DNA of 32,354 nt from a virus. Within the stretch, counting starts at the first letter, position 1, and each line of letters begins with the position of its first letter. This document shows positions 2-31,926 of the stretch, in pieces. Below the pieces are notes generated by a model that searched no databases, was not told where the DNA came from, and was given only the letters and a program-made list of their open reading frames with translations. The translations under genes and the position numbers were made by a program. The stretch spans positions 1 through 32,354 of IMG/VR virus record IMGVR_UViG_3300032265_002304. One strand, 5' to 3'.

Positions 2-364
2 GTAGGTAATTCACATGTATATGATTGGTATCAAGATAAAATGTCTAAGGTAGCTTGGAATAAACCAAGAGAATTACCTGGCTGGGCTAAGGCAATCTTC
101 AGCCCAAATATGGTTGCGGCAGGCAACATACAAACACAAGAGGAATTAGATCAACTAACACAAACAGTTATTGACAATCTTGACTATTACCTTTATAATA
201 TAGGAACAGTAGATAAATGGATTCACCATTTTGAAGCTCATAACAATTATTGTAAGAATCAAAAACTAAATCCTCACACGCCTGCTATGATGGTTAATTT
301 CGGAGTAGATAAAACGGTGTTTATGAATTTTATGGATGAGCTACTTTTCCCAGAAACACCATGA
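2..364 (+). CDS. Ferredoxin-dependent bilin reductase (PcyA/PcyX/PebS superfamily), 3' end only
   Basis: The reading frame is open from base 2 through the first ATG at 41. The codons before that ATG read like protein (YDWYQDK), and no ribosome binding site precedes it, so I treat this as the last 120 residues of a gene starting outside the window. The visible part has the C-terminal signature of ferredoxin-dependent bilin reductases: ELPGWAKAIFSPNMV matches the family's LPEWG..IFS block. Further on, HNNYCKNQKLNPHT followed by NFG and ending in DELLFP matches the PcyA-type HYCQQQQKND..FGE..LFD end. These soluble enzymes reduce biliverdin to phycobilins with electrons from ferredoxin. The central catalytic His/Asp residues lie outside the window. 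At the position of the C-terminal Asp used by PebS I see Asn-Pro, which would fit a PcyA/PcyX-type enzyme better. The stop overlaps the gp33 start (ATGA). The superfamily call rests on alignment by eye and the subfamily is open. Confidence 0.68.
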   Translation, partial: VGNSHVYDWYQDKMSKVAWNKPRELPGWAKAIFSPNMVAAGNIQTQEELDQLTQTVIDNLDYYLYNIGTVDKWIHHFEAHNNYCKNQKLNPHTPAMMVNFGVDKTVFMNFMDELLFPETP

Positions 365-29292: not shown

Positions 29293-31926
29293 ATGTCGTT
29301 AATCAAAAATATAGAACTAACCCAAGGTACAACGTTTACCGATACGGTACAATATCTGGATGATAATAAAAATCCAATTAGTCTAACAGGTAATGTAGTA
29401 TACGGACAAATACAAAAATCTGCAGGCGGAAATGTCTTAATGGCATTTACTGCAACTATTACTGATTATGGTAATAGTATAATTAGTTACGGAATAACTT
29501 CTCAAAATACAGCAAATATTGCATTTGGAAGATATGTATATGTGCTTAATGCGACAGACAGTAATGTAGTTTTAAACATATCTTCAGGTTTTGCAACAGT
29601 TAACGAAGGCGCTATTCCTGGTAGAATTAGTGTTCAACCCGAAACACCTGCTGCATTCAATCCAATATTTTTATACGTAGGCGCAACTGGTCTTAGAGGT
29701 AATGTAGGAACAACAGGCGCAACGGGTATTGCTGGTCCTTCAGGCGCAACGGGTGCGGGTGCTACCGGTGCAACAGGAACGATTGGTTCTACAGGATTAA
29801 CGGGTAATATTGGCGCAACAGGATTAGGTGCTACAGGTGCTACAGGATTAATAGGTGCATCTGGGGCAACAGGTTTGCGAGGATTAACCGGCAATGTTGG
29901 TTCCACCGGTGTACAAGGTGCAACAGGATCAATAGGAGCAACAGGTGCTACAGGAACAATCGGGGGACAAGGACCTATAGGTAGTACTGGCTCAGTCGGT
30001 GCAACTGGTCTTACAGGAGCAACAGGGTCATTAGGTGCTACGGGTGCTACGGGGGATGCTGGCGCAACAGGTGCAAATAGTACAGTAGCAGGGCCTGCCG
30101 GTGCAACAGGTATACAGGGCGCAACAGGTTTACGAGGATTAACAGGTAATGTTGGTTCTACGGGTGTACAAGGCGCAACAGGATTAGCAGGGTCTCAAGG
30201 TGCTACAGGTATTACAGGAGCATCAGGATCTATAGGTTCAACAGGTGCCACAGGTATTACAGGTGCAACTGGTCTAACAGGTGCTACAGGATCATTGGGT
30301 GCTACAGGTATTATTGGTTCAACCGGTGCCACCGGGTTTGGTCTAACAGGTGCAACAGGATTATTAGGTGCAACCGGTCTAACAGGTGCAACAGGATTGT
30401 ATATTGTATCGGGCGGTCTATCTCTTGGTAATTTAACATTAAATTTTAATAATGGAAATTCGTTAACATTATCGGGCTCATTCTTAGGATCAACAGGTGC
30501 AACGGGTATTCAAGGTATTCCTGGAACAGCAGTTGCAGTTGGTGCTACAGGTGCAACTATTTTATCGGCAAATGTTGCATCGGGAAATTTAATATTTACA
30601 TTTAATACAGGTAATACTATAACAACAACAGGTTCCGTATTAGGTGCAACTGGAGCTACGGGTTCTAGAGGATTGGTAGGTAATATAGGATCTACAGGTA
30701 TTACTGGTAATGTTGGTCTAACAGGTAATGTTGGCGCCACAGGACCCCAAGGAAATATTGGTGCTACTGGAGCAACAGGATTAACAGGTAATGTGGGTGC
30801 ATCTGGAATATACATAAATTCTGCAGCTGTTATATCTGGAAATTTACAACTATTGTTTAGTGATGGAAATACATTAATTGCATTTGGTTCAGTATTAGGA
30901 GCCACGGGTCCAACTGGATTAACAGGAAACATTGGATTGACAGGTAATGTTGGCGCCACAGGATTGTATATAACTGCTGCAAATATTATAAGTGGTAATT
31001 TAAGTTTAACATTTAACAATAGTAATACATTAACAATAAACGGTTCTTTATTAGGGGCAACAGGCCCTCAAGGTAATGTTGGTCTAACAGGGAATGTTGG
31101 TTTAACAGGGAATGTTGGTGCAACAGGTCCTTCGGGTAATGTTGGTGCAACCGGTTTGACAGGTGCAAATAGTACTGTATCGGGTCCTACGGGGGCAACT
31201 GGTTTAACAGGTAATGTTGGTTTAACAGGTAATGTTGGGGCAACAGGTTTAACTGGTAATATAGGCGCATCTGGAATATACATAACGTCTGCAAATATCA
31301 TAAGTGGTAATTTAACATTAACATTTAATAATAGTAATACATTAGCAGTAATTGGTTCATTAATAGGTGCTACAGGCCCAACAGGATTAACGGGTAATGC
31401 AGGTATTGCTGGGAATGTTGGTTTAACAGGTAATATTGGCGCAACAGGACCTTCGGGTAATGTTGGTGCAACGGGTGTTGCGGGAGCAAATAGTACTGTA
31501 TCGGGTCCTACGGGAGCAACTGGTCTAACAGGTAATGTTGGTTTAACAGGTAATGTTGGCGCAACAGGACCTTCGGGTAATGTTGGTGCAACTGGTCTAA
31601 CAGGTAATGTTGGCGCAACAGGACCTTCTGGTAATAGTTATACATTACCAACAGCAAATACTACAGTATTAGGCGGAGTTAAAATAGATGGAACTAGTAT
31701 TACCATTAGTAATACTGGCGTCATCAGCGGCGCAAGTACCTATTCATTACCAACTGCAACTACTACAGTATTAGGCGGAGTTAAAATAGATGGAACTAGT
31801 ATTACCATTAATGGTTCTGGTGTTATAAGTTCTTCGGGTAGTGGATTTGCTAACATAAATATAGATGGAGGGGGCAGTGTTACTTTATTTACTGCTGATC
31901 TAAATCTCGACGGAGGACCTGCATAA
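29293..31926 (+). CDS. Collagen-like fiber protein with beta-strand interruptions
   Basis: An 877-residue protein. Residues 1-110 form a strand domain ([26 protein letters not shown]) like the N-terminal domains of phage upper-baseplate and fiber proteins. From residue 130 a Gly-X-Y region begins, dominated by GATG, GLTGN and GNVG triplets. It is interrupted five times by a 34-residue unit of the form (I/L)[17 protein letters not shown], then NTL..GS.LGATG (starting about 30397, 30556, 30808, 30964 and 31276). The end has two copies of a [16 protein letters not shown] module. This would be a long trimeric collagen-like fiber with regularly spaced strand clasps. There is little proline in the triplets; Thr is common instead. 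DNA-level repeats suggest length variation by recombination. Confidence 0.8.
29680..31638 (+). repeat. Collagen-like Gly-X-Y coding repeat region
   Basis: About 2 kb of 9-bp-phased repeats with GGT/GGC at every third codon outside the strand interruptions. Many units are near-identical at the DNA level, for example GGTAATGTTGGTTTAACAGG, which occurs several times after 31075. Two segments of about 70 bp, starting near 31171 and 31492, are almost the same (AGTACTGTATCGGGTCCTAC and onward). Confidence 0.8.
31659..31708 (+). repeat. 50-bp exact direct repeat, copy 1
   Basis: Identical to 31761-31810 (offset 102 bp, 34 codons). It starts TACTACAGTATTAGGCGGAG and ends ATTACCATTA. It encodes the [16 protein letters not shown] module near the end of the collagen-like protein. 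Identity at third codon positions suggests a recent duplication or gene conversion. Confidence 0.85.
31761..31810 (+). repeat. 50-bp exact direct repeat, copy 2
   Basis: Second copy of the 31659-31708 sequence, in the same reading frame and 102 bp downstream. The flanking codons differ (serine after copy 1, asparagine after copy 2). Confidence 0.85.

Follow-up and report, generated by a model that had tools for sequence, protein, structure and literature searches.

Bilin reductases of phages are commonly regarded as aids to light harvesting in cyanobacteria. The window analyzed here, a complete virus record of 32,354 bases (34% GC), begins inside a gene resembling those of ferredoxin-dependent bilin reductases (FDBRs) and runs from it directly into a gp33-gp59-gp32 block, which raises the question of what such an enzyme does at this place and in which host. 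The best explanation we can offer, at a probability of roughly 65%, is that a working FDBR ends a three-gene cassette inserted at gp33 of a T4-like phage with a non-cyanobacterial, possibly betaproteobacterial host, that its product would be phycocyanobilin (PCB), and that its use would be iron gain and biliverdin disposal.

The first gene (positions 2–364, + strand) has no start inside the record and runs off its left end, with 120 coded residues in the ORF list; the truncation is the plain end of the virus record. The preliminary description, made from the letters alone, had recognized here the C-terminal signature of an FDBR on the PcyA/PcyX side, and both motifs it named, ELPGWAKAIFS and HNNYCKNQK, are found in the translation. 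The fragment matches Pfam PF05996 (Fe_bilin_red; E 3.2e-5, profile positions 126–228 of 228) and phrog_7278 (E 1.9e-7). At 24.1 bits the Pfam score lies under the family cut-off of 31 because half of the protein is missing, and the complete protein of the relative L003 scores 78.2 bits (E 9.7e-22), above that cut-off. Together with the viral relatives and the fold of the full-length protein (below), these matches confirm the fragment as the C-terminal part of a genuine, conserved FDBR, whose family occurs once in the record of the window.

The peptide patterns by which relatives were collected from viral contigs come from the fragment in the window, so that phages at a greater distance are missed. 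The scan gave 58 loci, every one coding a relative, among which 51 (L002–L051 and L059) form the clade of the window, with 28 distinct full-length reductase proteins, and seven (L052–L058) are more distant. Many of the 51 are near-identical copies, so that counts given for the clade are not counts of independent events; loci with open 5′ ends (L002 and others) and L059 (35 residues) were counted for gp33 and left out where residues are missing. The nearest complete relative is L003 (224 aa), 95% identical to the window over the fragment, and at the DNA level the left end of the window is 91.5% identical to L002 over 3.1 kb and 96.1% to L003 over 2.3 kb. No FDBR relatives were found in a scan of plasmids, and a scan of genome contigs gave two MAG contigs only, both of which look phage-like. 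These two, L079 (Ca. Neomarinimicrobiota, 335 kb) and L080 (Rickettsiales, 30 kb), carry a PcyX-like gene, a heme oxygenase gene (hemO) and a nitrilase-like gene, and the neighbors that they share (Hsp20-, ClpS- and GuaB-like, assigned by eye) suggest that both come from a large marine phage and were mis-binned as bacteria.

Family, fold, catalytic residues, gene order, purifying selection and the lack of psbA, PHY and CpeT in the records searched were all computed on relatives. For the reductase, the median dN/dS comes to 0.163 (from 490 of 595 pairs); hemO has a median of 0.234, the gene preceding hemO 0.161, and gp33, gp59 and gp32 have 0.081, 0.113 and 0.106, respectively. No pair used exceeds 0.55, and the values are rough because dS is high in many pairs (median 1.0–1.3). 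By these codon comparisons, the cassette genes are kept as proteins and the reductase is under purifying selection.

Gene order and the insertion site

Within the window, the TGA stop of the reductase and the ATG start of gp33 overlap as ATGA (361–364, +), and the direct coupling read from these letters in the preliminary description extends to the relatives, with gp33 directly after the reductase in 51/51 loci of the window clade. The gp33-type late transcription co-activator (361–627, +; PF16805, E 2.5e-22; phrog_254) in turn overlaps by 4 nt with a gp59-type helicase loader (624–1244, +; PF08993 and PF08994; phrog_269, E 3.4e-60). Two small ORFs of unknown function, both conserved in relatives, follow: one overlaps gp59 (1198–1422, +; the ORF list gives the frame from a TTG at 1180) and has weak matches only (E 0.016 at best in Pfam, 0.026 at best in PHROGs), and the other (1452–1655, +; from the ORF list) has no Pfam or PHROG match. 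The last gene of the collinear block encodes a gp32-type single-stranded DNA-binding protein (1694–2620, +; PF08804, E 3.5e-46; phrog_224, E 2.2e-119). Near the other end of the window, positions 29293–31926 encode an 877-aa protein made mostly of collagen-like GATG/GNVG repeats, probably a tail fiber.

The upstream heme oxygenase gene that had been proposed for such an enzyme is present in the relatives, directly before the reductase in all 46 loci that hold a whole reductase gene beginning 250 or more bases inside the contig. PF01126 identified hemO in 17/18 records, the one miss (G001, the contig of L002) ending inside the reductase. Before hemO lies a conserved gene of ~200 codons resembling 2OG oxygenases (40 of the 43 loci with room), which is not next to hemO in L025, L026 and L040 and whose frame in L042 has a stop well before hemO. 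The junctions are tight: the reductase and gp33 overlap by 4 nt in 39 of the 51 relatives and by 8 nt in ten (1 nt in one, a 2-nt gap in one), hemO and the reductase by 8 nt in 37/47 loci, and the 2OG-like gene and hemO by 4 nt in 28 of 42 measured. Given that the genes overlap by 4, 8 and 4 nt in most loci, the arrangement suggests that the 2OG-like gene, hemO, the reductase and gp33 form one translationally coupled unit. Neither hemO nor a tmRNA is found in the 32,354 bases of the window, which ends inside the reductase; judging from the relatives, the window's own phage would carry heme oxygenase, the 2OG-like gene and a tmRNA further upstream.

The first cassette gene matches phrog_2954, named 'ferrochelatase', at E 3e-51 to 1e-53 in five proteins. 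Its alignment shows the HxD...H...R pattern known from 2OG-Fe(II) oxygenases, and a structure model of modest confidence (pLDDT 77.7) matched 726 PDB chains at E ≤ 1e-3; prolyl-4-hydroxylases, the first of them from Pseudomonas, head the matches listed. By sequence, Pfam returned no match for the L007 protein and just E 0.0023 for that of L029, and a profile search of PDB sequences returned none. We predict a 2OG-Fe(II)-oxygenase-like protein and, on the predicted fold, have rejected the name 'ferrochelatase', which for the phrog_2954/Mosig_00059 family in PHROGs and GenBank looks wrong. The gene is 36% identical to Mosig_00059 ('putative ferrochelatase'), which lies in the heme cluster of the Pelagibacter phage Mosig. 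A functional link between the 2OG-like gene and hemO is a possibility, and the link may also be incidental, given that marine phages lacking hemO often carry the former (154 of 50,697 phage records hold a relative, vs. 3 with hemO relatives, at different E limits) and that the annotation of Mosig lists another ten iron dioxygenases or Asp/Arg hydroxylases beyond the heme cluster (our count). We also noted unannotated hemO relatives in two single-cell records, Marine virus AG-345-P14 (MH319765, 44989–45567) and AG-345-D19 (MH319721, 244–837).

At the start of the cassette, just upstream of the ATG of its first gene, eight loci (ATGs at L003 780, L004 381, L027 3027, L030 138, L031 4174, L032 1234, L033 1301 and L034 1638) show a hairpin whose loop is complementary to the following Shine-Dalgarno sequence, and similar hairpins were seen in L007, L026, L037 and L041 by eye only. 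The scan gave 11 distinct hits, of which 8 lie where a cassette begins, and five shuffled sets averaged 1.4 (the real hits de-duplicated, the shuffled ones not); the hairpins have at least three different stems. Such a hairpin could possibly form a pseudoknot that hides the ribosome site.

Further upstream of the cassette lies an exonuclease (phrog_298 in L007), and ARAGORN detected a permuted tmRNA there in 11 of the 31 window-clade loci on which it was run. The Mosig genome has the order exonuclease, hypothetical gene, tmRNA, gp33 and then, after other genes, gp59 and gp32, with counterparts identical at 44% (exonuclease), 49% (gp33), 34% (gp59) and 53% (gp32); there is no cassette there, and the hemO-FDBR cluster of Mosig sits far off, beside neck genes. 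Given that Mosig keeps this gene order without a cassette there, the cassette probably entered the genome directly before gp33. Considering as well the methylophage Melnitz, for which the available text describes a tmRNA directly upstream of the late transcription co-activator (PMC9004378), the junction between tmRNA and gp33 looks like the place of insertion. In the distant lineage L053–L056, gp59 and gp32 likewise come after hemO and the FDBR, and L056, the locus examined for it, has a gp33-type gene in between. Throughout L053–L058, hemO lies upstream of the reductase, and gp59/gp32 lie downstream wherever the contig extends that far. Since the arrangement recurs at this distance, the link of hemO-FDBR to the gp33-gp59-gp32 block is, on gene order, either old or repeated. 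Four cyanophage FDBR places that we viewed have other neighbors, namely cpeT and gp5, ribonucleotide reductase, pebS and terminase, and a 2OG gene and structural gene.

Descent, active site and predicted product

In a tree of 43 rows, PebS and PebA stand apart (100/99). Within the remainder, 34 rows, almost all of them from phages or viral contigs, form a clade (98/97) that holds the Lys lineage, a PcyX clade (98/66; 5owg, Mosig, L052 and L079) and the window clade (99/99). The PcyX and window clades join each other at 93/91, before PcyA. Alphaproteobacterial PcyA (the AX clade) and CB_2 lie outside the sampling of the tree, and a treekit warning applies to the join of the window clade with the rest, at which long branches meet. 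In this sampling, the reductase does not fall inside the clade of cyanobacterial and cyanophage PcyA, and by descent it belongs with phage PcyX, apart from PebS/PebA. A PebS-type enzyme was rejected on the separate branch and on the Pro that replaces the C-terminal Asp of PebS, the Asn-Pro noted earlier being correct in the alignment.

The AF2 model of the full-length L003 reductase (pLDDT 90.9) has the FDBR fold. Its top Foldseek matches are PcyA, and its VIA Z is 23.9 to PcyA 2g18 (217 residues), 21.6 to PcyX 5owg (175 residues, 1.8 Å, 29% identity) and 18.1 to PebS. By sequence, the nearest solved protein is PcyX 5owg (E 4e-44), with PcyA at E 1.1e-12.

Since the upstream part is absent from the window fragment, the catalytic residues were read in relatives. 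Positions 76, 88 and 105 of Synechocystis PcyA are Glu, His and Asp in 28/28 distinct window-clade rows, and the trio, including the central His and Asp in which the preliminary description had seen a decisive check, is present in 50/50 loci covering the site (L059 is too short). All 50 thus have Glu where PcyX-type enzymes have Asp55: this position is Asp in PcyX 5owg, Mosig, L052 and L079, and Lys in both distinct proteins of L053–L058 (RKCHLK/RKAHLK). In 5owg this Asp is the 63rd residue of the chain, with the next catalytic Asp 31 residues further on, and it would be Asp55 if the entry numbering runs 8 lower, as the structural comparison suggests. Nearer the C-terminus, the motif NPHTP is common to the window clade and PcyX, and PcyA rows have ND or NK. 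The earlier placement on the PcyA/PcyX side therefore holds for descent, by the tree (with PcyX, 98/97) and by the PcyX-like NPHTP, and needs qualifying for chemistry, for which the catalytic Glu suggests the PcyA type rather than the PcyX type.

We predict that enzymes of the window clade make PCB rather than phycoerythrobilin (PEB), given the Glu at this site, the report that a CB_2 phage enzyme lacking the PcyX-specific Asp55 makes PCB (PMC11480375, available text), and the proposal, in the accessible part of PMC10151467, that PcyA evolved by gaining Glu76, a residue absent in PcyX, together with 18-vinyl reduction. Against this prediction stands the remark in PMC13193486, as far as its text was available, that structure/function relationships of FDBRs are not reliably predictable. 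The alternative, in which the enzyme is PcyX in function, forms PEB from biliverdin and treats Glu for Asp as a conservative swap, draws on the nearest solved relative, on the joining of the two clades before PcyA and on the shared NPHTP. We regard it as unlikely, if the foremost of the alternatives, considering that the PcyA-type Glu is invariant in the covering relatives while Mosig, L052 and L079 keep Asp, and that the phage enzyme without that Asp makes PCB.

Purpose and host

The reading we prefer, a working PCB-forming FDBR closing a cassette at gp33, would proceed as follows. The cassette would consist of a 2OG-Fe(II)-oxygenase-like protein, a heme oxygenase and, last, the bilin reductase, and would probably be translationally coupled into the gp33-gp59-gp32 replication/late-transcription block. 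Heme oxygenase would open host heme to biliverdin, CO and Fe(II), and the reductase, with host ferredoxin and its Glu-His-Asp trio, would carry out a four-electron reduction of biliverdin, most likely to PCB, so that the cell would gain free iron and dispose of biliverdin during phage DNA replication. Fer2 ferredoxin was found in 0/18 viral contigs, and in Mosig and the cyanophage P-SSM2. For the window's own phage, the upstream genes, the host, the product and electron donor of the enzyme, its co-expression with replication genes and its purpose are what we infer, the purpose being to release iron and turn over heme and not to harvest light.

The bilin could also itself be the point, with PCB or PEB serving as chromophore for a host phytochrome or a bilin-binding globin and altering light signaling. 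In E. coli, by the available account (PMC11480375), the PcyA of the CB_2 phage provided for a functional phytochrome, and bilin-binding globins occur with pre-PcyA in heterotrophs (PMC10151467, in part); however, PHY was found in 0/14 viral contigs, so no phage phytochrome accompanies the enzyme in these records, and we consider this use doubtful, slightly more so than a PcyX function.

Less probable still, by a clear step, is that the window holds an ordinary cyanophage pigment gene supplying phycobilisomes in an infected (freshwater) cyanobacterium. Many cyanophages do carry pcyA or pebS, the best of the cyanophage gp32 proteins listed reaches ~56% identity to that of the window, and the window's gp8-like protein has a Synechococcus elongatus phage as top match among those listed (29%). 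Against this, gp32 is equally close to that of the pelagiphage HTVC008M (55.9%), the reductase groups with PcyX, apart from cyanophage PcyA, and Photo_RC/psbA (PF00124), found in the cyanophage control P-SSM2, was found in 0/18 viral contigs, which are fragments but include ones of 222, 190 and 119 kb. CpeT was likewise absent (0/14 viral contigs), which says little since P-SSM2 lacks it too.

The tmRNA class points the same way. Rfam classes were looked up in 21 chosen loci, 16 of them of the window clade. The betaproteobacterial class (RF01850) was assigned in seven of the eight window-clade loci with a complete tmRNA (L006, L007, L012, L029, L034, L037 and L041), the eighth (L031) matching the general permuted class only; in the rest of the 16, the tmRNA is truncated (L003, L005 and L027) or gave no match (L021, L026, L033, L038 and L045). 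The alphaproteobacterial class (RF01849) was assigned in Mosig, L056 and L053, and the method is supported by Mosig, whose alpha class fits its known SAR11 host. A counter-example is the methylophage Melnitz, with a tmRNA of alphaproteobacterial type (PMC9004378, available text), and the class is thus an imperfect host marker. Since psbA was not found and seven of the eight complete tmRNAs are of the beta class, a cyanobacterial host is argued against, the cyanophage pigment gene was set aside as first choice, and the phages of the window clade are probably not cyanophages; a betaproteobacterial host is a lead rather than a result. Compared with 398 genomes, the phage tmRNA gave short matches only (in 155/398), the six best being one-piece tmRNAs with tags such as ANDETFALAA, and no host name can be drawn from this comparison. 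Matches in phages were partial (19% of the query among those listed) and fell in Stenotrophomonas and Xanthomonas phages, no similar tmRNA was found on plasmids, and the phage tag was not found in the literature searched. Separately, we noted a cluster of 25 tRNA genes (L096:8018-13784) on the L029 contig (G008, 222 kb), plus a permuted tmRNA with the tag ANDEQFALAA, and unusual tags in other relatives, e.g. ANDDYFYQDLKLAA.

Chance resemblance or a decaying gene, to which only the sub-cut-off Pfam score of the fragment would lend itself, is refuted by full-length relatives far above the cut-off, purifying selection, the intact catalytic trio and the FDBR fold of one relative.

More tentatively, and beyond the preferred reading of an iron-releasing cassette at gp33, the window may belong to a large clade, so far overlooked, of T4-like phages that infect freshwater betaproteobacteria, in which a non-photosynthetic heme-to-bilin pathway sits in a replication/late-switch operon at a tmRNA|gp33 hot spot and mines host heme iron for iron enzymes produced in the course of infection, such as the 2OG oxygenase, while the reductase clears biliverdin. 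The word freshwater is here our assumption from JGI sample numbers. If true, PcyX-like phage enzymes outside phototrophs would have evolved PcyA-type chemistry anew or retained it. The clade is conserved (51 contigs beside the window), is without detectable photosystem genes and is tied to late transcription and replication genes, and the role of heme oxygenase and bilin reductase in phages of non-phototrophs would become directly testable with it. Test material includes many natural enzymes, naturally occurring Glu, Asp and Lys variants of a single catalytic position, and a defined insertion site that in one relative is free of the cassette.

Comparison with known systems

Phage hemO-pcyA/X cassettes, often with alaS, are described from oceans, peat bogs and lakes in the available text of PMC11480375 (2024), which links the marine ones to pelagiphages and demonstrates one freshwater phage PcyA. 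The host of PcyX-carrying phages, called unclear in the preliminary description, is no longer wholly so, as the Pelagibacter phage Mosig carries hemO with a PcyX-like gene and the same source suggests that the marine cassettes originate from pelagiphages. The characterized PcyX, a metagenomic phage enzyme (EBK42635, PDB 5owg), is like the window-clade enzyme in fold, clade, active-site His and Asp and NPHTP, and phage PcyX also lies next to hemO; it differs in having Asp in place of Glu and in making PEB, and a gp33 neighborhood is not reported for PcyX in the text available. The Mosig cluster (MT647606, Mosig_00054/00053) likewise has hemO directly before the FDBR and a 2OG ('ferrochelatase') relative, but with four genes between the latter and hemO, and the exonuclease-tmRNA-gp33-gp59-gp32 order lies elsewhere in that genome. 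Its FDBR is 35% identical and has Asp at the site, its cluster lies beside neck genes, and its host (SAR11) and tmRNA class (alpha) differ.

A further known system is that of the CB_2 phage with vHemO, vPcyA and vAlaS, compared by description only (PMC11480375, available text); this is a freshwater phage with hemO and a PcyA/X-like FDBR that lacks the PcyX Asp and makes PCB; it differs in carrying alaS and in its proposed host, Methylocystis. An alaS three-gene cassette does not apply here, given that alaS (TIGR01821) was found in 0/14 window-clade records, fragments that could hide alaS elsewhere, and in 1/18 overall, the distant record G018 (contig of L056, Lys lineage). That match has one TGA counted inside the matched stretch. 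A link to methanotroph phages with pmoC, of the kind described for CB_2, was also dropped, with no AmoC match in 18 records, a result that is weightless since the control gave none either.

The PcyA of cyanobacteria and cyanophages shares the Glu-His-Asp trio and the fold, but stands on separate branches, is 23–30% identical in its cyanophage copies and has ND or NK rather than NP near the C-terminus. Cyanophage PebS, likewise a phage-borne single-polypeptide FDBR, belongs to another branch and has Asn at the place of His88 and a C-terminal Asp where the window clade has Pro. Melnitz shares the permuted tmRNA directly upstream of the co-activator, and differs in that the word heme is absent from the main text of its paper (PMC9004378). 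Our searches around the window clade and around bilin genes of betaproteobacterial phages, which covered neither subscription papers nor supplements and did not use gp33 as a query, showed no report of this clade. While hemO-FDBR cassettes as such are already published, the window clade is new and well supported, with PcyA-type residues on a PcyX-side enzyme that is fixed beside gp33.
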